This document shows, one piece after another, positions 1 to 56,099 of a stretch of 64,000 nt of DNA. Source of the stretch: Thermothielavioides terrestris NRRL 8126 (Eukaryota; Ascomycota; Sordariomycetes; Sordariales; Chaetomiaceae); assembly GCF_000226115.1 (NCBI RefSeq), contig NC_016457.1, positions 4,526,001-4,590,000 of the forward strand. The letters run 5' to 3'. Within the stretch, counting starts at the first letter, position 1. The number at the start of each line of letters is the position of its first letter. Under the pieces are notes generated by a model. That model did not search any database. It saw only the letters and a program-made list of their open reading frames with translations, and was not told the DNA's origin. Both the position numbers and the translations under genes were made by a program.

Positions 1-3000
1 ACTTGCTATATCTTAGTATTATAGAAACTCCTTTCTAAGTACGCTAATTAGCTAGGAACTAAGCAACTTACTTATAGTCTAGTAGCTAGCTAGCTACTAA
101 TCCTCTAACTTCTAGCTATTAATAATTACGAAGTTCCTTAAAGTTGGAGGTAGTAATAAAGATATAAGGTAGTATAGTCCAGTGGCTAGCTAGTACTCAA
201 CTAGAGAACTGTATATTGCTGCTTATTGCTAAGATATAAACAAAGGAATATCTAACCCCTAAACCTATTGCAGATCCTCCTATACCCTGCTCAATAGTTT
301 CCTTAAAATATGGTTAAGATCCTTTTAAGAGCTATATTTTACCTATATATTATCCTGGATCCTATATATCGTTGTTTATAGCAACTGTATAAGCTCCTAG
401 ACCTATAGGAATAGGTACTGTATAATAGAGACCTCGTCTAAGCTAGTAAGATCTACTAGTAGTAGAACAGCGCTATAGTATATCCTAAACCCCTTCGCTT
501 CTAAGATATTGACTAGCTATTAGAAGTGCTTTAGCTACAACGAGTTTGTTAACAAGTGATAATACTAGATATACGAGCAGAGGAGTAACTAGCTCCTAAA
601 CCATTTACACCTATAGCGAAGGATACTAACTAGCTCTAGAATTGGCATATTCTACAAGAGCTAAGCCACTTGATCTACCTAGTTGACTACATTATAATAG
701 TCTAGGTTATAGCGTTTGTCTAGAGTAGCCTACCTAAGTGTAGAGACCTTAGCAGCAATGTCGGCAGTACCCTAGGTACTTAGTTGTAGTAGCTAGACAG
801 CTACTATACTACTCCGCCACTGCCTATTATTGTACTATAGACTAGGGAACTAGTCTAGTATAAAAACGCTATTGAAATTGAAAGGTACATTGGTATTAAA
901 CCGCTTATATACTATCGACAGCTTATATACGATCAGTGCTTGAGCCCGCTTAGGCAGCCTATTGAAGCCCTAGCCGTTAAACCGCTCTATATATATAGCT
1001 AGAAGTATATAATTAAGACTCTTGAACTTAGCTTAGATTACTTTGTTTCAGTAGTCTTATATACAATAATCAAGGTAGATAATTAAACTAGTAAAAGGGA
1101 AGGTGCTAAGCATCTGCTACTTTAGTATAGGCTTAGAGTTCTTAACCTTCGAATACTATCTTTTGACCACATTTGTTGTAGTAACCTAGTAGAGCAAGGG
1201 GATCAGGTCTTACACCTAATACGCCTATAGCCAAGTGTTGTTTAGCCAGTTGTTCTTCAAATACTGCTTAAGTCTATCAATGTTAGTATAAGCAATAGCA
1301 GCTTCAACAGACTCTATATAGCCTTTTTCTAAACGATAGCTTAGAAGAGCGGCTCCTATATAGCTAAGGTACTCTTTGTTAGTACCAATCTAACGCTTTA
1401 AAGTCTCCTAGCAATGCTTTATATAAAGGAGATGTTATATATATAGGAGGCTACGCTTATCGTAGCCAAATGCCACCTAGACAGCAAGTTGTTAGGCTAT
1501 AGAGTCGTTGGTAATTATATATTTTAGGGGCTAGCCCCTATCAACTACTCCCCTATACTATTCTAGTAGTACGCCTAGGTATACTACAATGCTATTAGCG
1601 GTCTACCTCTCTATAAAGAAGTAAATAGAAAGGAGCTAGTAGCTATTAAAGTCCTAAACTATAATTATAAACAGGTGCCAACCCCTACGTACAGTCTTAT
1701 AAGTAGTATTCATAATTGCTAGTTGGCTATACTTCTTTAGTATATCCAATAGGTCTCTATATACGAAGACCAATATAAAGGAGTTCTCGCCAAGGATAGT
1801 CAGCGCCTTATACTTATATCGGTCGCTATAGAATAGTAGCTAGGCAACGGCTTCTATAAATTCTAGCTCCCTAAAGACTTTGCGGGACTATGCCTTATAA
1901 TCATTGCGTTTATAGAGCTTAAGAGACCTATATAGGTTACTAATCTCCTAGGTTATAATGTACTAGCCGCCTATATAGTAAAGACGTACCCTAGCCTTAG
2001 GGGTTTCGATATAGCTACGTAGCTAGTGTTCTATTATACTATCGCTATATCTAGAGGAGAGGAGGTAGACAATATACTCTAGAATAATATATAGACGTTT
2101 AACTATCTCAATGTCTTCTATCGAGTGGTTATAGCTATAGCAAATAGCAATATCAACGGTACTATCGTTGTATTTAACCTAGTAGAGAGTACAATAGTAT
2201 AGCTCTATATTCTATAGCGCCCTGTTACATTTACCTTGCCCTTTGGTCTTTTACAACGTCTTCTAGAGGAGGCAACGAAATATAGTCTTCTTTTTCCACT
2301 ACCTTAGGGCGTCTCTCTAGCTATAGAAGTACAAAACCCAGCGCTATTTAGCTCGCTAAGCTATATATAGGAGAGTAAATATACCCTCTTTGAACTAGCG
2401 TTCCCAGATCTCTATAATATTATAAAGAATTGCAAAGCCGCCATTTAACGCCCTAACCTCTAGTTTAGATATATAAATTAGGGAAATATACCTATACCTA
2501 CGTCTAGAAGCTGCTTCCCCTATAGAAGAACTGTCTTCCTTAGAGGATAGTAAAGAGCTGTTTAGCAACTAGGCAGAGGCTAGAGCAGGACTAGGAATAC
2601 TACTCGATTATAACGATTGTAGAGTTAGATGCTTAGGAATAAGGAGAAGCTCGAGTTAAGGCAGTACCTACTAAGTAGCTAGATCGAAGTTAGGCTTAGG
2701 AAGCAGATGTTCTAGGACTAGGGAGCTCGCTATAAGTATAGCATTAGCAATTCAATGCTAATAATTAAATTCGCTATTTAACTAAATAGCACTTATACGT
2801 TAAAGGGGACTAAAGGCGCTAATAGGCTATAAATACTACATTGTCTTATTACTAACTATATAAAGCAAGCTAGTCTATAGTAGGATACTAGTCTATAGCT
2901 AGATCAATACTTAGTAACTGCTAATAGGTAGGCGCTAAAACAACTTATTTAACACATCTTCTAGTTGCTAGCTATATAGTACGTCGTTTTGTTGCTAACT

Positions 3001-46274: not shown

Positions 46275-47215
46275 TACCTCCCCTGCCCCGTTGGGTAGCT
46301 AAATTGGAGTATACGTAACGTTGTATCGAGCGTGGTTCAGGTCTAGCGTAGCGCCGGTCGTAATAGACGCTAGCACCTACTATCCAGTTGTATAGCGCCT
46401 ACCTCGCTATTGGGGTAGTCTAGCGTAGTTGCCTATTGAGGCCTTGCCGCTCGTAGCCGTCCTATTGCCTAGGCTCGAGTTGTTTATTTATATCGCTTAG
46501 CAAGCCGCTAGTTGGCCCTTCCTCGCTTCGTATATTTGTATATCGCAACTACATTGTACCGAGCGTACCTACTAATTATATACAATCCAACCCCGCCTAC
46601 TATCATTTAAACCCCTCCTCCTACGCAACTTAACTTTCTCGTATTTTCTTCCTACATCTAATATACACCTCCCCTTCTTCCTCTACGATCCGTTCTTCCC
46701 CCTTCTTATATAATAACATCGTTCTCCCTATTCCGTCTCATATACGTTTCTTTTCTTTCGCGCTCCTACCTTACATCTGCCTATACCTTCGAATATACTA
46801 CTTGTTATCGCCTTAGCTCCTATAAAAGTCTCTTCGTCCCCCCCTTCGATAGCAATATAGTTTCGAAACTCGTTTGCTATATTTATATATAAGAACGTTA
46901 AAATGTTAGTCGTCGCCGCTACTCTTAGAGGTAGTAGCGTAGATCGCTATCCTAGTAGCGATAATAACGAAGACTGTAATATAAGTACTTCTAAAACGAC
47001 TCTGCTATAGACCTAAGTCGCTTACTAACTACGACGTTAAAACCAAAACAATCGCTAGAAGAACGATAAACTATTGATCGGCGAGTTCGTTGTCGAAGGA
47101 GACTTCGACGATAAAGAAAACGAACTACTCTTCGACAAAGGAGAGTTCTATATACAATATATTGCTCGCCTTCTTAGTGGCACTAAGGTCGAATATACCC
47201 CTAGTTATAGCAAAT

Positions 47216-47397
47216 TGTCGCGTGCTAGTGCACACGTGACTCTATCTGCCAGGCTCCCTGCGCTCAGGGGGCACATGTCAGCTCTGCCCACACATGTATA
47301 TAGACCTCGGCGCTCCTCCCACCCAGCTTGAGAGGAGCACCTCTCTCAATACACATGCCTCTGCATCCTGCATGGCCCCACTTCGCTGCTCTTCTCA
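47216..47397 (+). repeat. Copia 5' LTR
   Basis: 182 bp, TGTCGCGTGCTAG to CTGCTCTTCTCA. A TATATAG sequence at about 47297 could serve as the promoter box, followed by a pyrimidine-rich stretch. Confidence 0.95.
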
Positions 47398-47420
47398 GTT
47401 ATGAGCCCGGTTCGCGCACA
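47398..47420 (+). promoter_or_regulatory. Copia primer-binding site (tRNA-Met anticodon-arm type)
   Basis: Directly after the 5' LTR comes GTTATGAGCCCGGTTCGCGC. The part GTTATGAGCCC is complementary to the anticodon arm GGGCTCATAAC of initiator tRNA-Met, not to a tRNA 3' end. Priming by an internally cut tRNA-Met fragment is known for Drosophila copia. The deleted relative at 39196-40744 has the same site with RIP-type changes. Confidence 0.6.
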
Positions 47421-47574
47421 ACACTCATAACAGCGGTGTAGCCCAGTTGGGGCCATCCTTCTTCTTTTCTCCAACAACCACTTCCAGTTTTCTCGATCGT
47501 CAACAACTCCCACAAGTTCACATCACCCCCATCGTTCAGTCTGAACAACGCAGCACACCTCAGTTTGCTTCAAG

Positions 47575-50500
47575 ATGACACTCGAAACTGAGAAAACCGT
47601 CACCGTTGCTGTTGCAGCGCTTCCAACCCTCGACAGCCCCAAGGACTGGCCAAGATGGATCTCTGCTGTTCGCCAAGAGGCCAACAACCTGCGTGTCTGG
47701 CACATCATCGACCCAGACACCGAGCTCGCCACCGAGGCTGAGATGCTCGGCCTTCCTGTGCAGCCCACCCAGGGTGCGGCACGTCAGGCGGTCCAGGACC
47801 GCCATCTTCAGGCGTGGCACACTGCACTGCAAGCCTGGAAGGCAGCCGATCCCACCACCCGTGGCGAGGAACCTCAGTCAACCAATCCTACTGAGGAGGA
47901 GATCCGCCGTGAATTCCTCAAGCTGTGCGAGGCGTTCTCGAAGTCCGCCATCGACACTGCGGCGTTCCGTGCCGTCAACAAGCTCCGCGAGATGATCAAC
48001 GTGTCTGTCAGCGACCGCTACGCACACACCGCACACGACATCATGGAGGCCGAGAACGTCACCGGCACACGCGGGTTTATACAGACGCTGCGCAAGATTA
48101 TCGCACCCTCCAACAGCGCTACTTTCACTGCGCTTGCCGAGGAGTACGCAACTGTCCTTGCCAGAGGCAGCCAGAGCGGCGTCGAACCCAGGACCTGGAT
48201 TCTCGAGTACATGTCGGTCCTCCACCGCGCAAGGGCGGCCAACATCGCCGCAGTCACCGACGCAACAGCCGTCACCACATTCCTCAAGACTGTGCAGAGA
48301 CGCTTGGATCCAGAGTGGGCGACTCGCATGCTGAAGGATATCAGTGTGACTGAGAAGCTCGGCGGCAAAGGACCAACCCTTCTCGACTTGGCTCTCTCAC
48401 TCGAGGCGATCCTCCAGGCTGAAGCGGTGGTCCACCCGAAGCCTGGAGCCTACCCCGTGCTTCCAGGAGCGCAGAACGGTCAGAAGGGCAGTCAGAAGCG
48501 CAAGAAGAACCGCGACTGCCCGTGCAAGCCGAAGACTTTTCGCCACTGGTGGTTTCCCTCGGAATGTCGGCAACTTCGGTACGCTCTGACAGGGGAATCC
48601 CTGAACGGCGTGACGCTCCCAAACGACGCGGTGAATGCAGTGCGCCAACGATTCGCCAAGGAGCGCTGGAACGACCTTCGAGTGGAGCTCCAGAAGCTCG
48701 GTTGGAAGATCCAGAACGCATCGTCAAACGCCAAGACCACTAGTTCCAATAGTGGCGCGGGTCCTTCATTTCCGGGAGCGCTCCAGGTGCACGCTGTCAT
48801 CGACCCAGCGATCGCAAGCGAGCTCGAAGGAGCGCGTGGCGTGTTCGCATCTCTCGAGTTTGGCCCACACCCGCTCAGCAAGTGCATTCTGTTTGACAAC
48901 TGTGGAGCGGTCAATCTCGTCAATGACAGGGCTCTCCTTGTCCCTGGCACGTTCGTCAAGACGAGCGGTGAGACTGTTGAGGCAGGCACCACATCCTTCC
49001 CAATCTCTGGCCGCGGCAAATGGATCATCAAGAACGTTTTGAACGGCGCGCGCGGCCCGAACACTGAGGACCTTGTCATAGACAACGTTGCTGTCGTCGA
49101 GGGCTTTCACGTCAACATTGTCTCTGAGAGACGCCTTCGAGCGCAGGGCGCTTGGTACTGCGGTCTGGATTGCACGCTGCGTTGGGGAACTTTGGAGAAG
49201 AGTATTGTACTCAGGCAGCTGGTCGAGAAGTTCAACCTGACCTTCTTGCAATACAATGCTCTTTCCTCCTACTCTGATGCCCTTCGGGTGCTCCCCAGAA
49301 GCTTTGCCGGACTTGTGACTTTGAGCGCTGCAGTTGTGAAGAACTTTGGGAGGAGCAGGCCCTCCAAGGACCCGCTCCCAGAGAGAGAAGACCCAGCTGC
49401 TCTCTGGCACATCAGATCTGGTCATCTGAGTTCAGAGGCGCTGGAACATCTCGTCTTGAACGCCAGAGGTGTGCGGATTCGCGGGCCTCGCAGACTGGAA
49501 TGCGAGGTATGCGCGCAGGCATACGCGGAACAGGTTATTTCGCGCCGCCCACCATCGAAGCCGTCACCACGCCCATTTTGGAGGGTCTCTTGGGACCTGT
49601 TCGACTTTCCGAGGGCACTTGACGGCTCGAACTGGCTGCTGGTCATCAAGGACGAGTACAGTGGGAAGCTTTTCGCGACTCCACTCATACGCAAGACGCA
49701 CGACAGTGTGTACGATGAGCTCGTCCGCTTCGAACGCTGGGTGAAACGCCAATTCGGGCTGCCCATCTGCAAGATCAGGCAGGATGGCGACACCAGTGTC
49801 ATTGGCATCAAGGGATACACAGCGTACGAGCTCTGGGCGCAGGAGCAGGGCATCGACTTGGAGGTTACGCCTTCGGATACCAAGGAGCCCAACGGCGGTT
49901 CAGAACGCGCAGGCAAAGAACTTATCACAAAGAGCCTTGCAATGCTCACGGGCGCCGGACTTCCTCAGAACCTGTGGCCAGAGTCGACGGTTGCAGCTGC
50001 GTACTTGCACGGCATAAGCCCAAGTCGCGCTCGCAACTACCGCTCACCGAACGAGGTGCTCGACTCTTGGTTCAGACACTGGTTTCGCTGGTATCAGCCC
50101 GGTCTCGTGCATTCCCTGACTGCCGACCTGCGCCCTAACTGGGGCGGCGTTTATGCGTACGGCTGCCGAGCGTACCCGCTGACGAAGGAACGCGAAAAGG
50201 GGATTGAGAGGCGTGCTGGGAAGGTCAAGCCCAGAGCGCACATCGGGTATCTTGTTGGATACAGGGCGTCCAACATTTACCGCATCTGGGTACCGAAACT
50301 CAGGAAGGTCATCACAACGCGCAACGTGACCTTTGACGAACGCACGTTCTACCGGGAGGGAGAGGAGCAGCTTGATGCTCAATCGGTGGCAGTCGCCAGA
50401 AAGGTTGTTGAGCTCATCGAACTCCCCATAGAGCCTCGGGACGCCGAGGCAGTGCCGTTCGGAGTTACAGATGCCCATGAAGACCCAGTGACGGTTCCCG

Positions 50501-52104
50501 GCTCTCCAGGACATCTGGGGGGTGTGACTGAACGGGAACCGGAAGGGCAGGCTCCTCCCCACTCTCCATCCTGTCTGGGGGGTGCGGAAGTACTCGAGCA
50601 TCGCGGCCAGAGTTCGGGTGAGGAGCCCACTGGTGGTCTTTACACTCCAGAACCAACACCGGAGCCGCGCCAGGAACGCCCGGACGGTTTTGGAGGGAGC
50701 GGCCCCCCTGCTGATCACGGTGCTAGCAGTGACAGCAGACCGGTGGGAACTGCATCATCGGAGGCCCCTGATGCAGTTATCGGAGACGCCAGTAGCAGCG
50801 TCGCTGGCGGCACAACTAGGAGTGCCAGCCAGGGCAGCACGACGGCAAGTGCTGCCGCAGTCGATACTCCTAGCAGTGAAGAGGAGGTCGACCGCCCTGG
50901 CGATCAGCCAGAGGCTCCAGACGACTGGGAAGACGCCTCAAACCATGGTTCTCAGCCTGATTCTGGAACACCCGCAGCCACGCCAGCGAGGGAGAAGCGC
51001 AAGTACGTGCGCAAGGTATACGGACCACCAACTCGTTACTCAAGACGGATCCGTAGACAGTCTCCCGGCGGCGGTGCAGGCGGAAGCGGCGGTCTGGTGT
51101 GCTTCGCAGCCCCCATGTACCATGAGGAGAGCATCGACGTACCAGATCAGCACGCGTGGCATTCGTTCAGCCACACATTTTTGGATGACCCTGTAATCGC
51201 TCTGCAGGAGGGCGACAGCATCCAGCACCGCACATTGCATGCGGTTTTCGCGGCGGCAGTCCGCCAACATCGTGACGCGCGTCCTGGGGCAACGCCAAGC
51301 AGGCCCCGGGTGCATTTTGACGACCTCGCCAAGCTTCCTAAGCGCTGGAGGGATCTCGCCAACCACCCTCAAGGGCCCGAGTTCATCAAAGCGGCTGAGG
51401 AAGAGATTCGCAATCTCGTCAACAGGAAGACATGGCGCAAGATTCGGCGCGAGACCTTCAAAGGAAGACCACTCCCTCTGAAGTGGGTTTTCGTCTACAA
51501 GTTCGATCAGAATGGCAACCTCGAGAAGTGCAAGTCTCGCATCTGCGTTCGAGGCGACCTTCAGGAGCTCACTACTCTGCAAAGCACTTATGCAGCCACA
51601 CTCGCAGCGCGCTCGTTCCGCACAATGATGGCTATCGCCGCGCAGTTTGATCTTGAGGTCAAGCAGTTCGACGTAGCGCAGGCGTTCTTGAATGCGGACC
51701 TGCCTGAGGGTGTTGTTTGCGAGATGCCTGAGGGGTTCGAAGAGCCTGGATTTCTTGTGGAACTGCAGAGAGCTCTGTACGGCTTGCGAGAGTCTCCGTT
51801 GCTCTGGTACCGAGAGTTCTCCGGCACACTTCGGAAGCTCGGCCTCACAGCTTCGCCTGAGGAGCCATGCTTGTTCTTCGATCGCCAACGGCGCGTGCTC
51901 GTGCTGTTCTACGTGGACGACTACCTAGTCTTCTACCACAGAGACCACGCGGAGACAGCTCAGAGGATCATCGACGCTCTGAAAGCGAAGTACGAAGTGC
52001 ACGAAAAGGGGGACGTGGCTTGGTTCCTGGGCATCAGGGTGATCCGCGACGGGCATCAGGGTGATCCGCGACCGCGCGCAACGCAAGATCTGGCTCTGCC
52101 TTGA
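47575..52104 (+). CDS. Copia gag-pol, N-terminal 1509 codons (gag, protease, integrase, most of RT)
   Basis: The ATG at 47575 follows a 177-bp leader. Domains: gag (residues 1-310) with a short Cys/His cluster near residue 313-330 (CPCKPKTFRHWWFPSEC); aspartic protease near 438 (ILFDNCGAVNLV, an Asn-Cys-Gly form of the usual D-S/T-G); integrase zinc domain near 610 (WHIRSGH and then CEVC); integrase core with Asp in SWDLFDF (about 672), Asp in IRQDGD (about 733) and Glu in GGSERAGKE (about 773); a long disordered Ser/Pro/Glu-rich linker (about 940-1170); reverse transcriptase from KWVFVYKF (about 1304) to catalytic FYVDDYLVF (about 1447). The last 16 or so residues are out of frame because of a 22-bp duplication at 52029-52072. 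Without it the frame continues into 52061-52966. Confidence 0.95.
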   Translation: MTLETEKTVTVAVAALPTLDSPKDWPRWISAVRQEANNLRVWHIIDPDTELATEAEMLGLPVQPTQGAARQAVQDRHLQAWHTALQAWKAADPTTRGEEPQSTNPTEEEIRREFLKLCEAFSKSAIDTAAFRAVNKLREMINVSVSDRYAHTAHDIMEAENVTGTRGFIQTLRKIIAPSNSATFTALAEEYATVLARGSQSGVEPRTWILEYMSVLHRARAANIAAVTDATAVTTFLKTVQRRLDPEWATRMLKDISVTEKLGGKGPTLLDLALSLEAILQAEAVVHPKPGAYPVLPGAQNGQKGSQKRKKNRDCPCKPKTFRHWWFPSECRQLRYALTGESLNGVTLPNDAVNAVRQRFAKERWNDLRVELQKLGWKIQNASSNAKTTSSNSGAGPSFPGALQVHAVIDPAIASELEGARGVFASLEFGPHPLSKCILFDNCGAVNLVNDRALLVPGTFVKTSGETVEAGTTSFPISGRGKWIIKNVLNGARGPNTEDLVIDNVAVVEGFHVNIVSERRLRAQGAWYCGLDCTLRWGTLEKSIVLRQLVEKFNLTFLQYNALSSYSDALRVLPRSFAGLVTLSAAVVKNFGRSRPSKDPLPEREDPAALWHIRSGHLSSEALEHLVLNARGVRIRGPRRLECEVCAQAYAEQVISRRPPSKPSPRPFWRVSWDLFDFPRALDGSNWLLVIKDEYSGKLFATPLIRKTHDSVYDELVRFERWVKRQFGLPICKIRQDGDTSVIGIKGYTAYELWAQEQGIDLEVTPSDTKEPNGGSERAGKELITKSLAMLTGAGLPQNLWPESTVAAAYLHGISPSRARNYRSPNEVLDSWFRHWFRWYQPGLVHSLTADLRPNWGGVYAYGCRAYPLTKEREKGIERRAGKVKPRAHIGYLVGYRASNIYRIWVPKLRKVITTRNVTFDERTFYREGEEQLDAQSVAVARKVVELIELPIEPRDAEAVPFGVTDAHEDPVTVPGSPGHLGGVTEREPEGQAPPHSPSCLGGAEVLEHRGQSSGEEPTGGLYTPEPTPEPRQERPDGFGGSGPPADHGASSDSRPVGTASSEAPDAVIGDASSSVAGGTTRSASQGSTTASAAAVDTPSSEEEVDRPGDQPEAPDDWEDASNHGSQPDSGTPAATPAREKRKYVRKVYGPPTRYSRRIRRQSPGGGAGGSGGLVCFAAPMYHEESIDVPDQHAWHSFSHTFLDDPVIALQEGDSIQHRTLHAVFAAAVRQHRDARPGATPSRPRVHFDDLAKLPKRWRDLANHPQGPEFIKAAEEEIRNLVNRKTWRKIRRETFKGRPLPLKWVFVYKFDQNGNLEKCKSRICVRGDLQELTTLQSTYAATLAARSFRTMMAIAAQFDLEVKQFDVAQAFLNADLPEGVVCEMPEGFEEPGFLVELQRALYGLRESPLLWYREFSGTLRKLGLTASPEEPCLFFDRQRRVLVLFYVDDYLVFYHRDHAETAQRIIDALKAKYEVHEKGDVAWFLGIRVIRDGHQGDPRPRATQDLALP
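52029..52072 (+). repeat. Perfect 22-bp tandem duplication breaking Copia pol
   Basis: The unit starting GGGCATCAGGGTGATCCGCG occurs at 52029-52050 and again at 52051-52072 without a difference. Because 22 is not a multiple of three it shifts the frame. It is the only visible lesion in the polyprotein. Confidence 0.95.
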
Positions 52105-52966
52105 CCAGTACATCGAGAAGATTGCGAAGCGCTTCGGTCTCGCGGATCAAATCACCTTTCCAAGCATCCCTCTCCCTGTAATGGAACTCCGCAAGTTCAC
52201 TGGCACTGCCACTCGAGCGCAGATCAGGCTGTTCCAGGAGCTTGTTGGATCGCTACTCTACGCCGCGGTCGTACTGCGCGCGGAGGTCGCGTTCCCGGCA
52301 TCGTTGCTCTCGCACTTCCTGACGAACCCCTCGGGGACACACATTGATGCTGCAAAGCATGCAATCTCCTACCTGTTTGGCACGCGCTTCCTCGCTATTC
52401 AGTTCGGGGGTGTGCCGCAGGATGCTGCTCCCACGCAAATCTTGCTCATCGCAGGGGACGCGTCGCATGCGGATGATCCTGATACGCGCAGGTCGTCACA
52501 AGGCTATCTCATCTCTCTGTTCGGTGGGCTCGTTCATTGGAAGGCTGCGCGCCAAGATACAGTCACCACCTCGTCTACGGAGGCGGAGCTCCTCGCTCTG
52601 TCCACCGCAGCGCGGGAGACAATGGCGTTCAAGCGTTTCCTCAGCGACCTGCAACTTGAGCTGGGTGTGCCTTGGACTGTGTTCTGTGACAACACGCAGA
52701 CCATCCGGCTCGTGGTGGGAGAGAACGAACGCATCAGCACTCGCCTGCGTCATGTTGACATCCACAACATGTGGCTGCGTCAGGAACACGCGAAGGGATC
52801 TTTCGAGGTCGCGTACTTGCCAACTGCTGAGATGCCTGCAGATGGGCTTACGAAGGTGTTGACTCGCCAGAAGTTCGAGCACTTCAGGGAGCTCCTCAAC
52901 CTGCAGGATGTGCGTCATATGGTGCAGGGAGACGATCAGGGGGACAGGAACGCAAGGCTTGAGTAA
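52061..52966 (+). CDS. Copia pol, C-terminal part (end of RT and RNase H), frame-shifted
   Basis: The natural continuation of the preceding frame. The sequence WFLGIRVIRD at the end of the first part should join RAQRKIWLCLDQYIEK here. RNase H features: Asp in LIAGDASHADD; the block RRSSQGYLISLFGG; Glu in TSSTEAELLALS; Asp in VFCDNTQTI; and RLRHVDIHNMWLRQ. These match the KTGY-like, STEAE, DN and HIDV-type order of Copia RNase H. The first ATG at 52061 lies in the duplicated segment and is probably not a real start. As it stands the element would not make a complete polyprotein unless ribosomes shift frame. Confidence 0.9.
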   Translation: MIRDRAQRKIWLCLDQYIEKIAKRFGLADQITFPSIPLPVMELRKFTGTATRAQIRLFQELVGSLLYAAVVLRAEVAFPASLLSHFLTNPSGTHIDAAKHAISYLFGTRFLAIQFGGVPQDAAPTQILLIAGDASHADDPDTRRSSQGYLISLFGGLVHWKAARQDTVTTSSTEAELLALSTAARETMAFKRFLSDLQLELGVPWTVFCDNTQTIRLVVGENERISTRLRHVDIHNMWLRQEHAKGSFEVAYLPTAEMPADGLTKVLTRQKFEHFRELLNLQDVRHMVQGDDQGDRNARLE

Positions 52967-53053
52967 AAAACAAACTAAACACAGGAGCGCACGCCGGCGC
53001 AAAACAGACTGGGGGGTGCCCGCACCCGCGAAACAACAAACAACAACGCGGAA

Positions 53054-53967
53054 CTACTTGCCACCCTTCTTCTTCTTGGGAGTCATGGCGGCCAGCACCG
53101 CCGCCGCCACACCACGCGCCAGCGCCTCCGGGTCAAAGCCCGGAGCAGCCTCCTCCTCGCTCTCGTCCTCATCCTCGTCCTCCTCCTCGCTCTCCTCCTT
53201 CTTGGCCTTCTTGGCCTTCTTGGACTTCTTGGTGGGCGCGGCCGCCTTTGCCTTGCCCTTGCCCTTGCCCTTGGCGGGCGCGGGCGCGCGCTCGTCGTCA
53301 TCGTCGTCGTCATCCTCGGCGTCGGCGTCCTCGCCCTCCATGGCGAGGAGGGCGCGCAGGGTGGCGCGCAGCGTCTTCTGGTCCTACCACACACAGTCAG
53401 ACTAGCTCTTTTCCTTTGTCTTTTCATTTGTACTCACGAGATTGGCCTTGGGCTCCTGGCGCCCCTGCATCAGGGCCAGGAAGTGCTTGGCGGCGGGGAG
53501 CACACTCGCGGGGCTGATTCATCAGTACCGTGCGCCTTGCAACTGTGCTGACAGACTTACATGGAGCGACACTTCTTGCCGCGCGCACAGCGCGCGCACC
53601 GGGCCGCTTTGCCGGGGGCCTCCCGGCACTCCCCAGAGCTCTTGCCGCGCATGGCGGACTTCAGGCAACCCAGGCAGGGCTGCTCTCTCAGGGCGCCCTC
53701 CTCCTCCTCATCCTCCGAAGAGGAGGAGGAGGAGGAGGGGGGCGCCGCACGCTTGGAGGGGGTCTTCGGCGTGGCGGGGGTCCTGCTGCAAGTGTCAGAG
53801 ACGCGGATGTACGCGCCGCGCCAGTCGGGCAGATTGTGGTGTGCTCACTTCTTGCTGGCGCCAGCGCCAGCCTTGGTGGGGGTGGCCGGGAGCGGGGGAG
53901 GCTTGTTCTTGGCCGCCTTGGCGGCGCGGGCCTTCTCGAGAGCGGCGAGGCGAGCAGAGGACGGCAT
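53054..53967 (-). CDS. Antisense four-exon cargo gene in Copia, Cys-cluster nuclear-type protein
   Basis: Opposite strand to pol, between pol and the 3' LTR. Exons, in transcript order: 53967-53849, 53785-53561, 53513-53438, 53383-53054; together 750 bp, 249 residues plus stop TAG. Introns of 63, 47 and 54 bp have GTGAGC, GTAAGT and GTGAGT donors, AG acceptors, and CTGAC, CTGAT and CTGAC branch-like sites close to the acceptors. The frame stays open across all joins. The product starts MPSSARLAALEKARAAKAAK. It has a Ser-rich/acidic block, then six Cys (residues 77-112) spaced C-x2-C-x12-C-x9-C-x2-C-x5-C, followed by a short conserved-looking IPASVLPAAKHF region, acidic runs and a Lys-rich nuclear-signal-like tail ending TPKKKKGGK. 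The Cys order recalls fungal Zn2Cys6 clusters but the spacing is wider. Acceptor 1 is a tandem CAGCAG. The function is not known. Confidence 0.7.
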
Positions 53968-54110
53968 GGTTGTTGTTGTTGATGTTGTTGTTGTTGCTGA
54001 TGCTGCTGCTGTTGCTCGCGGTCTGCAGAGGAAGAGTTCGGGAGATGGTTTGAGGCGCACTCACCATGATTAAATACTTCCAGGAGTGCAGCCATCGACC
54101 GGCCTGCGGC
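53968..54110 (-). promoter_or_regulatory. Leader of the antisense cargo gene, with a possible intron
   Basis: The minus strand just before the ATG is an unstructured run of CAA and CAG units (53968-54020). Before that lies a possible 42-bp intron (54064-54023; GTGAGT to CTGCAG). An upstream ATG near 54095 would start a frame that is not in register with the main product, so a spliced untranslated leader is the simplest reading. Confidence 0.4.
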
Positions 54111-54604
54111 ACTGCGGTATTGTCTGCATGGCGCGAATGCAACAATGGGTAGCAATGGTGGGCGTGCATTCAAGACGTTGGGCAACAAAGGCCACAATGG
54201 CACACATGCGAATGATCGCAATGCTCAATTGCGCAACCTGCACCCACAATCGAGGCGGCACGATTCAAGATACGCGCCTGAATGGAGGATGGGGATGGAA
54301 CGCGCTGCGCAATTGGGAACTGCGCACAATGCGATCAATGGCGCTCGCAACAATGCCAACGACAGCGCCCCTGAATGTCAACTTTGGCGCCCCTGGGTCT
54401 GACCGCATTCAGCGCAGCACGCAATTCGCCAACGCACGCGCCACAACGCGTACACAATGGCGCGCGGACAACTTGCACAATGGCGGCGGCTGCGCGCAAT
54501 GGTGGGATCAATACCGGAGGCCACAGTTCAATGCGCCTGGCAGTGCGAGCTCCAGAGTCAGTGCCCAGCATGCGTGTTCCACAGACAGCCTCCTGAGAGT
54601 CTGT
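54111..54604. other. Region rich in CAATG/CAATT units between cargo gene and purine tract
   Basis: About 500 bp with many GCGCAAC, ACAATGG and GCAATG units on the plus strand and no convincing frame. Open frames on both strands reflect the repeated composition. It lies upstream of the antisense gene and could hold its promoter. Confidence 0.4.
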
Positions 54605-54614
54605 CTGGGGGGTG
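54605..54614 (+). promoter_or_regulatory. Copia polypurine tract
   Basis: CTGGGGGGTG directly before the 3' LTR, the expected place for second-strand priming. The same 10-mer also occurs at 50515-50524, 50575-50584 and 53009-53018. Confidence 0.7.
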
Positions 54615-54796
54615 TGTCGCGTGCTAGTGCACACGTGACTCTATCTGCCAGGCTCCCTGCGCTCAGGGGGCACATGTCAGCTCTGCCCACACATGTATAT
54701 AGACCTCGGCGCTCCTCCCACCCAGCTTGAGAGGAGCACCTCTCTCAATACACATGCCTCTGCATCCTGCATGGCCCCACTTCGCTGCTCTTCTCA
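54615..54796 (+). repeat. Copia 3' LTR
   Basis: 182 bp with the same sequence as 47216-47397 by eye. It is preceded directly by CTGGGGGGTG, the likely polypurine tract. Confidence 0.95.
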
Positions 54797-56099
54797 CAAA
54801 TCCTATAAGGAATGTCGAAGGGCCTATACTATATACAAATAGGACTCTATATTATAGGCAATAAACCCTTGTCTTTAGTCTAATCTAAAGAAAATCCTTA
54901 AAGTGTACAATATAGGCTAGGCTATTAAGACCCTAGCCTAGAAGAAGACGAGCTTGTAGCCTGCTCGCTATATAGTCCTTAAACATAAATTTCGAAAGCT
55001 AATATAGTCTTTCCGAATTGCTTTTAACAACGTATAAATATATTGTATCTCTATTTAGCCGACACTACTCCCTCTATCTACTACTAAGCGGACCCCGACT
55101 TATACTATCCCCTAGACCCTAGTCGCCTCCTCTACTACGCTAAGCTACTATAGAGCTTTAGTGCCCTATAATCCGCCTACCTCCTCCCTAGACCGCTCTA
55201 CCTAGCTAGCTACCTACCTAACTTATCGCTTAATAAGTAATAAAGAAGCCTACTAACGTAATATACACTATCTAGTCGACGCTATTACAATAGTCGTTAA
55301 CATTAACAACCGTCTTATCGATTATATTTTAAGCTCGCTATAGTCTAGCCCTTCTCTATAAGGTGGCTATAGTACAACTTCTACTAAGCGCGATATTGCC
55401 CTAGTTCCCTTCGTCCTACGTCCTTAGCGCCGTCTATCCTCTCCCTTCGAGAACCTTGCCTACGTCCCTTGGGAATACGCTAATCCCCTACCCTAGACCC
55501 CTAGCAGGTCCAATAGACAACCGATTATAGAGGTACTTTCGTTGTCTAACGAAGGTATCGAGCACCTACCCACTAGCGATATAGCGCTATCCAAAGACGA
55601 AGAGGCTATAGAGTAGGGCTAGAGACGGCTCTGTCCCCTACTATAGCCCCGCTCCCACTTTATCCTATGCCTCGACCTATTATCAAACCAACCTACTAAC
55701 TAGAGCAATTACAGTAACTTTGATATCCGCCCCCGCCCTACCTCGGAGATCCTAGAGTAGATGATACGTTGGCCGCCGACCCTACCTCCCTTTAGCTTAC
55801 GCCTAGATATCCTATAATACTATAGAATTAACGCTAAGGTAAGGCCGAAGGACTACCTATATCTAAGGAAGGAGACCTAGTTAGTACGTCGAAGCCTCTC
55901 TACACTTGTATTTTTCTTATCGTTCTTTTATAATAAAGCTGTAGCTAGATATGTCGAGGTGACTATATACCTAATGGTACTACTAAGCTATATTCGTTTT
56001 ATCGTTGTCGTTTCTTATAGGGTAGTCTATATACAAACATTGTGTTTTCCCTTCCTTCTTTAGTTCGACGCTGGCCCATTGTTATATTGTACGTCTCCC

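Follow-up and report, generated by a model that had tools for sequence, protein, structure and literature searches.

How can a gene interrupted by introns persist in an element that transposes by way of RNA, and what might such a gene do for its carrier? The question is raised by a 64,000-nucleotide stretch of the genome of Thermothielavioides terrestris NRRL 8126 (contig NC_016457.1, positions 4,526,001 to 4,590,000; here called the window), in which a Copia-type LTR retrotransposon of 7.6 kb (47216-54796, plus strand) carries a four-exon, three-intron gene on the minus strand between pol and the 3′ LTR, from 53967 to 53054 (Table 1). Introns inside an RNA-borne element persist only if the genomic RNA leaves them unspliced, and antisense orientation ensures that. 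We conclude that this is probably a spliced accessory gene of the Copia element, retained as a protein for as long as the family has existed. More tentatively, on the strength of composition and of analogy with known systems, we suggest that its product may be a nuclear regulator associated with DNA or chromatin.

Table 1. The Copia element and its antisense gene, in positions of the window (Pfam rows, residues of pol)
Feature	Position	Strand	Remarks
Copia-type LTR retrotransposon carrying antisense gene	47216..54796	+	Identical LTRs, target duplication, Pfam domains in Copia order
Target duplication CAAAT, 5 bp	47211-47215 and 54797-54801		Flanks of the Copia element
5′ LTR, 182 bp	47216..47397	+	TG...CA
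3′ LTR, 182 bp	54615..54796	+	Identical to 5′ LTR
gag-pol open frame	47545..52104	+	1519 codons, stop to stop, in the window copy
Remainder of pol	52043-52966	+	Separate frame in the window copy
22-bp unit, tandem duplicate	52029..52072	+	Units 52029-52050 and 52051-52072; breaks the pol frame in the window copy
Pfam, above cut-off	SH3_retrovirus 864-936; RVT_2 1306-1502		Pol residues
Pfam, below cut-off	gag_pre-integrs 614-659; rve 675-771		Pol residues
Purine tract CTGGGGGGTG	54605..54614	+	Adjoins 3′ LTR
TATA-like box TATTTAAT	54069..54076	-	Candidate antisense promoter, ~100 bp ahead of the ATG; alignment covers 18 older copies
Exon 1	53849..53967	-	ATG at 53967
Intron 1, 63 nt	53786..53848	-	GTGAGC...CTGAC...CAG; tandem acceptor CAGCAG
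Exon 2	53561..53785	-	Alternative start 53782; carries six-Cys cluster
Intron 2, 47 nt	53514..53560	-	Donor GTAAGT, CTGAT near 3′ end, AG acceptor
Exon 3	53438..53513	-	
Intron 3, 54 nt	53384..53437	-	Donor GTGAGT, CTGAC near 3′ end, AG acceptor
Exon 4	53054..53383	-	Acidic and lysine-rich tracts; ends at stop codon

The carrier has LTRs with TG...CA termini and a 5-bp target duplication, and Pfam places its integrase-type domains before RVT_2 within one polyprotein, both as in Ty1/Copia elements. A comparison of pol with PDB sequences returned no match. The description of the element as young and RIP-free in the original prediction held up: the LTRs are identical, and 18 young copies in the genome differ only at 47391, 51551, and 53335 and by a 22-bp duplication, in a comparison that covers 47216-52034 and 52081 to about 53580-53600 and includes part, not the whole, of the gene. 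The change at 53335 affects the first codon position of residue 156 in exon 4; of the six one-base variants, five were read, and all five have it. The window copy is young yet not whole, as its pol is disrupted by the tandem duplication; the 22-bp unit is double in copies L001 to L004 and single in L005 to L019, and the 1799-aa pol frame is intact in 14 other genomic copies. Because the duplication-bearing copies occupy four different places, a pol-broken copy presumably moved in trans.

The purine-tract 10-mer next to the 3′ LTR recurs at 53009-53018, in the gap that separates the pol stop from the 3′ end of the gene, and at 50515 and 50575 in pol, giving four matches in the element against 0.03 expected in the window. 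The pair in pol sits between the integrase-type and RT domains and may represent internal purine tracts. We considered whether the gene segment is a nested DNA transposon, since it is bounded by a 10-bp direct repeat (53009 and 54605), but pol itself contains two copies of this 10-mer, and the inverted repeats, among the 25 of 33 pairs shown, do not lie at the ends of the segment. The flanking repeat is more likely the purine-tract motif than a transposon end. At the other end of the element, the 16-mer that follows the 5′ LTR, a candidate primer site, has three genomic matches away from the listed pol copies. Neither ARAGORN (bacterial code) nor Rfam found a tRNA at these three places; on visual inspection, one of them is an additional copy and the other two are another element. 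At L059 and L060, another repeated element with a different LTR-like sequence has the same 16-base primer-site sequence, GTTATGAGCCCGGTTC.

The proposed structure of the antisense gene, with canonical donors and acceptors and CTGAC/CTGAT branch-like sites, was reproduced by reading and by a search of 52967-54614 for the longest spliced ORF, which gave precisely the four-exon model of 249 codons and none longer on either strand. In the same region, the best frame on the plus strand reached 170, and without splicing the minus strand offered no more than 135. The spliced frame is open across every exon join, as predicted, and the tandem acceptor of intron 1 leads to a product of either 249 or 248 residues. 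When the gene span was dinucleotide-shuffled 300 times, no shuffle attained 248 codons (maximum, 242), under a splice rule fixed after the gene had been seen and with shuffles averaging 0.03 introns; taken alone this test is modest, and the comparison of copies below is stronger. The candidate TATA-like box reads TATATAAT in five of seven old-lineage copies and also in L044 and L047. The predicted six-Cys cluster and basic and acidic composition are present as well, with six Cys, 35 Lys, and 41 Asp/Glu residues and a pI of 9.2; the Cys residues lie at 76, 79, 92, 102, 105, and 111 (C-x2-C-x12-C-x9-C-x2-C-x5-C). Searches with the product against Pfam gave nothing above the cut-off, the best hit being Pox_Ag35 on a charged tract (E = 0.006), and its 90-residue middle part had no match in the PDB. 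The single-sequence fold of exon 2 was unusable, being too poor to search (pLDDT 56.8), and a search of a viral contig collection gave no homologue for pol or for the antisense gene.

Is the gene a regular part of the family? Copies were sought in the organism's own genome (36,912,256 bases in six contigs), where the pol query gave 31 scored places among 276 candidates: 18 near-full-length and stop-free (the 1799-aa frame in 14, the duplication in 4), a partial one (L019), and 12 riddled with RIP-kind stops. The DNA matches listed for the gene include at least 19 near-identical places (13 identical in score and 6 one mismatch lower), at least 20 older places, and one identical fragment. Once match pieces were merged, 40 gene places could be paired with 43 pol places among the matches listed; family pol lies on the opposite strand within 12 kb of 39 of the 40 and within 2.5 kb of 36, and the one place without it is the identical fragment. 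Conversely, all 30 near-full-length pol places among those scored have the gene, 29 within 2.5 kb and one at 8.3 kb. Four pol pieces were nobody's nearest partner: one is from the interrupted copy L019, one has the gene within 5 kb, and the remaining two have none within 12 kb among the matches listed.

Some places depart from this arrangement. At L051 (C1:9629500-9630900), the first part of an LTR runs straight into the antisense gene's intron 1, a joint that resembles the outcome of a template switch or deletion. At L050 (C5:546300-547280), exon 4 matches (63% amino acid identity) and what precedes it gives a poor alignment with exons 1 to 3, as if the 5′ part of the gene had been replaced or rearranged. 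We considered C5:546800 as a second family and rejected it, as its pol is 82 to 86% identical in DNA to RIP-mutated members over the longer matches and only the 5′ part of the gene differs.

We asked whether the gene has changed over the life of the family in the way expected of a protein. Twenty older places were aligned pairwise to the window copy. In eleven of them (L034 to L042, L044, and L047), differences in the gene are almost only C-to-T and G-to-A, so their genes are RIP-mutated members of largely the same lineage as the window copy. Another eight (L031, L032, L033, L043, L045, L046, L048, and L049) differ in the gene by many changes of a non-RIP type, and L050 aligned poorly with the window gene. 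L039, L044, and L047 combine a gene like that of the young lineage with spacer changes and indels like those of the older lineage, including an 11-bp insertion, and look mosaic, as from template switching. Counting sites at which at least four of the eight old-lineage copies share a non-RIP change, we found 16 synonymous and 21 nonsynonymous differences in the gene, where 322 and 1384, respectively, were possible (p = 0.0006, with a crude omega of 0.31). The comparison of synonymous and nonsynonymous changes among copies, suggested along with the original prediction, is therefore one that gives a sign of purifying selection. For pol in four old copies, with at least three sharing a change, the counts were 69 and 36, compared to 2238 and 8568 possible (crude omega 0.14), and the gene is under weaker constraint than pol (Fisher p = 0.02). 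The eleven copies of the RIP lineage offered too few sites to use (1 synonymous and 2 nonsynonymous).

The signal follows the spliced reading. In seven old-lineage copies (without L031), changes at codon positions 1, 2, and 3 number 10, 5, and 22, an excess at the third position (p = 0.001), while unspliced frames of the same copies give 20, 18, and 13 in any order; the codon-phase signal thus requires intron removal. Exon 1 by itself has no third-position excess (3, 0, and 2). Transversion rates were 3.3% at position 1, 2.0% at position 2, 6.9% at position 3, and 6.0% in introns, positions 1 and 2 together differing from position 3 at p = 0.009 and from introns at p = 0.05. Elsewhere the rates were low like those of positions 1 and 2 (5′ spacer, 3.4%; 3′ spacer, 2.3%; LTR, 1.1%); these regions may be constrained too, but they do not serve as a clean neutral yardstick. 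Exonic indels net to a multiple of three in all 18 aligned older copies, leaving no net frameshift, and the check on family members proposed with the original prediction did not refute it. Among 15 distinct exonic indel events, 11 are multiples of three and the other four form two compensating pairs, which are probably alignment noise, whereas 7 of 22 distinct events outside exons are multiples of three (one of the seven being an exon-2 event assigned to the border); trinucleotide slippage in exons rich in Glu, Asp, and Ser also favors such indels. Intron 3 has 4-bp and 1-bp insertions in older copies. None of the six Cys codons has a non-RIP replacement in the seven old-lineage copies. The TATA-like box is retained, and, RIP-type changes aside, so are most branch sites and acceptors; the non-RIP changes in splice signals are one at the intron 1 acceptor in L047 and one at the intron 3 donor in L045. 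Altogether, the comparison of copies makes it very probable that the gene is spliced, encodes a protein, and has been maintained by selection.

This bears directly on two other accounts of the locus. The working product could be an antisense RNA that pairs with the genomic RNA and restrains or adjusts the number of copies, an option recognized for such ORFs in the accessible part of PMC7264820 and one that the TATA-like box on the antisense strand would suit. However, RNA pairing is indifferent to codon phase and to the length of indels, and here the codon-phase signal is found in the spliced frame only and exonic indels keep the frame, so that we consider an RNA function unlikely. A host gene captured once and carried unused as a passive passenger would fit a product without a Pfam family above the cut-off, and retained introns are expected from capture at the DNA level or in antisense. 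Such a passenger should not have left a sign of purifying selection between two lineages, and no donor was found in the fungus's own genome: a six-frame search returned family copies and a few weak outside matches at E values of 0.045 and above, the best of them (E = 0.045) in a 660-aa frame. We regard this account as very improbable. Reading one weak match, L052 (C1:1151200-1153200), revealed no relative; L053 (on C6) is another of these weak outside matches.

Could the protein instead shield the element from RIP or from heterochromatin silencing? Among 96 scored genomic RVT_2 matches, 19 are stop-free, and all 19 are from this Copia family. Recency alone accounts for these clean copies, though, as they are too alike to be other than recent, and all 18 aligned older copies bearing the gene are heavily RIP mutated, with the ATG read as ATA in every one. 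Lasting counter-defense against RIP, one of the functions raised in the original prediction, is not supported by this finding. Protection from RIP by the antisense gene appears unlikely, because older copies that carry it have been mutated, and we hold counter-defense in general to be improbable. The places where young copies sit raise the question of a different role, in integration. Of the 1170-base left flanks of the 19 young places, 18 have less than 45% GC, and the TpA/ApT ratio is RIP-like in most; when left flanks of 400 bases are taken, 17 of the 18 independent young insertions fall below 45% GC, compared to 1 of 12 random sites (p = 3e-6; the threshold was set before the control, which comprised 12 of 20 drawn places, and L015 and L018 were counted once for their shared flank). 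These two copies, on contigs C1 and C2, match exactly over 1170 bases of AT-rich flank and in the 5 bases that precede the LTR, reflecting either a recent segmental duplication or an assembly artifact. The AT-rich bias may reflect targeting or the loss of harmful insertions. A chromatin-binding protein that directs insertions into RIP-degraded heterochromatin, or one that aids nuclear entry of the integration complex, would fit the bias, and the Pfam hits of pol include no chromodomain. But the integrase itself could produce the bias, purging of harmful insertions elsewhere would look alike, and nothing connects the antisense gene to it; we find an integration factor doubtful at best. It is highly unlikely, in our estimate, that the gene encodes specifically a heterochromatin-binding targeting factor, separate from the integrase, that steers insertions into RIP-degraded DNA. 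If true, the host's own genome defense would itself be making the safe harbor of the Copia element.

We therefore return to the reading of a spliced accessory gene with a protein product and ask how it compares with known systems. Maize Grande, rice RIRE2, and PvRetro13 are Gypsy elements. These three and Silene Retand, likewise a Gypsy element (PMC11963269), carry antisense aORFs between pol and the 3′ LTR, termed aORF-3R, which are an established class in the accessible parts of PMC7264820 and PMC11963269; the surprise that the original prediction attached to an antisense gene at this place was overstated in that light. Antisense potential coding regions were found in all recently active Retand elements, for which regulation was proposed (PMC11963269, in part), and PMC7264820, as far as accessible, describes a nuclear Grande product, a promoter of gene23's own, and functions of LTR-retrotransposon antisense accessory genes as unknown. 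The gene described here shares with the plant aORF-3R its place between pol and the 3′ LTR, its opposed orientation, and its presence in most copies and conservation. The plant genes are, in the same accessible text, without clear relatives outside the element; here none was found in the own genome, where the best outside match has E = 0.045. Unlike them, it belongs to a Copia element in a fungal genome and contains three introns, and the word "intron" does not occur in the accessible text of PMC11963269 or PMC7264820.

Among fungi, the nearest likeness is an additional antisense gene, brtn, which Zhao et al. reportedly described in 2011 in Boty-like retrotransposons of Botrytis cinerea. It differs from the present gene in belonging to a Gypsy element, as the accessible part of PMC8365987 assigns brtn to BcGypsy1, a Gypsy subfamily. 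In the accessible text of a survey of fungal Copia elements (PMC5445492), Table 1 lists no Thielavia and the main text does not contain the word "antisense." Our literature search, which most subscription journals lay outside, found no description of this Copia element. What is new here is thus a spliced antisense accessory gene in a fungal Copia element, with a test of selection, the class itself being already known.

The HBZ gene of HTLV-1 has spliced forms and encodes a basic leucine zipper. HBZ is an antisense retroviral regulator (PMC11963269, in part), and the likeness lies in antisense orientation and in a nuclear, regulatory role, which for the present product would be by inference; unlike HBZ, that product hits no bZIP family in Pfam at E values up to 1, and the likeness does not imply common descent. 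The cysteine cluster invites another comparison. Zn2Cys6 zinc clusters have the spacing C-x2-C-x6-C-x5~12-C-x2-C-x6~8-C. The product has the same order, CxxC...C...CxxC...C, with basic residues, but its spacing is 2-12-9-2-5 (loops of 12, 9, and 5), and no Zn-cluster family is among its Pfam hits, so we rejected identity with this family.

Under the accessory-gene reading, transcription would start from a promoter within the spacer at 53968-54614, and the introns, being reversed in the genomic RNA and hence unspliced, would survive transposition. The product, with its six-Cys cluster, lysine tracts, and acidic tracts, would then act in the nucleus on DNA or chromatin. There it might regulate transcription or integration of the element, like GENE23 of maize Grande or, by analogy only, retroviral antisense regulators. 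The suggestion of DNA binding rests on composition, because of the Pfam, PDB, and fold results given above.

Antisense accessory genes have been described mainly from plant elements, and the present case adds a fungal Copia element whose gene has three introns and shows how a gene can retain introns inside an RNA-mobile element. Its 19 near-identical and some 20 older copies allow selection, splicing, and age to be separated. Since the host fungus can be grown in culture, the question of what antisense accessory genes do could be put to the test.
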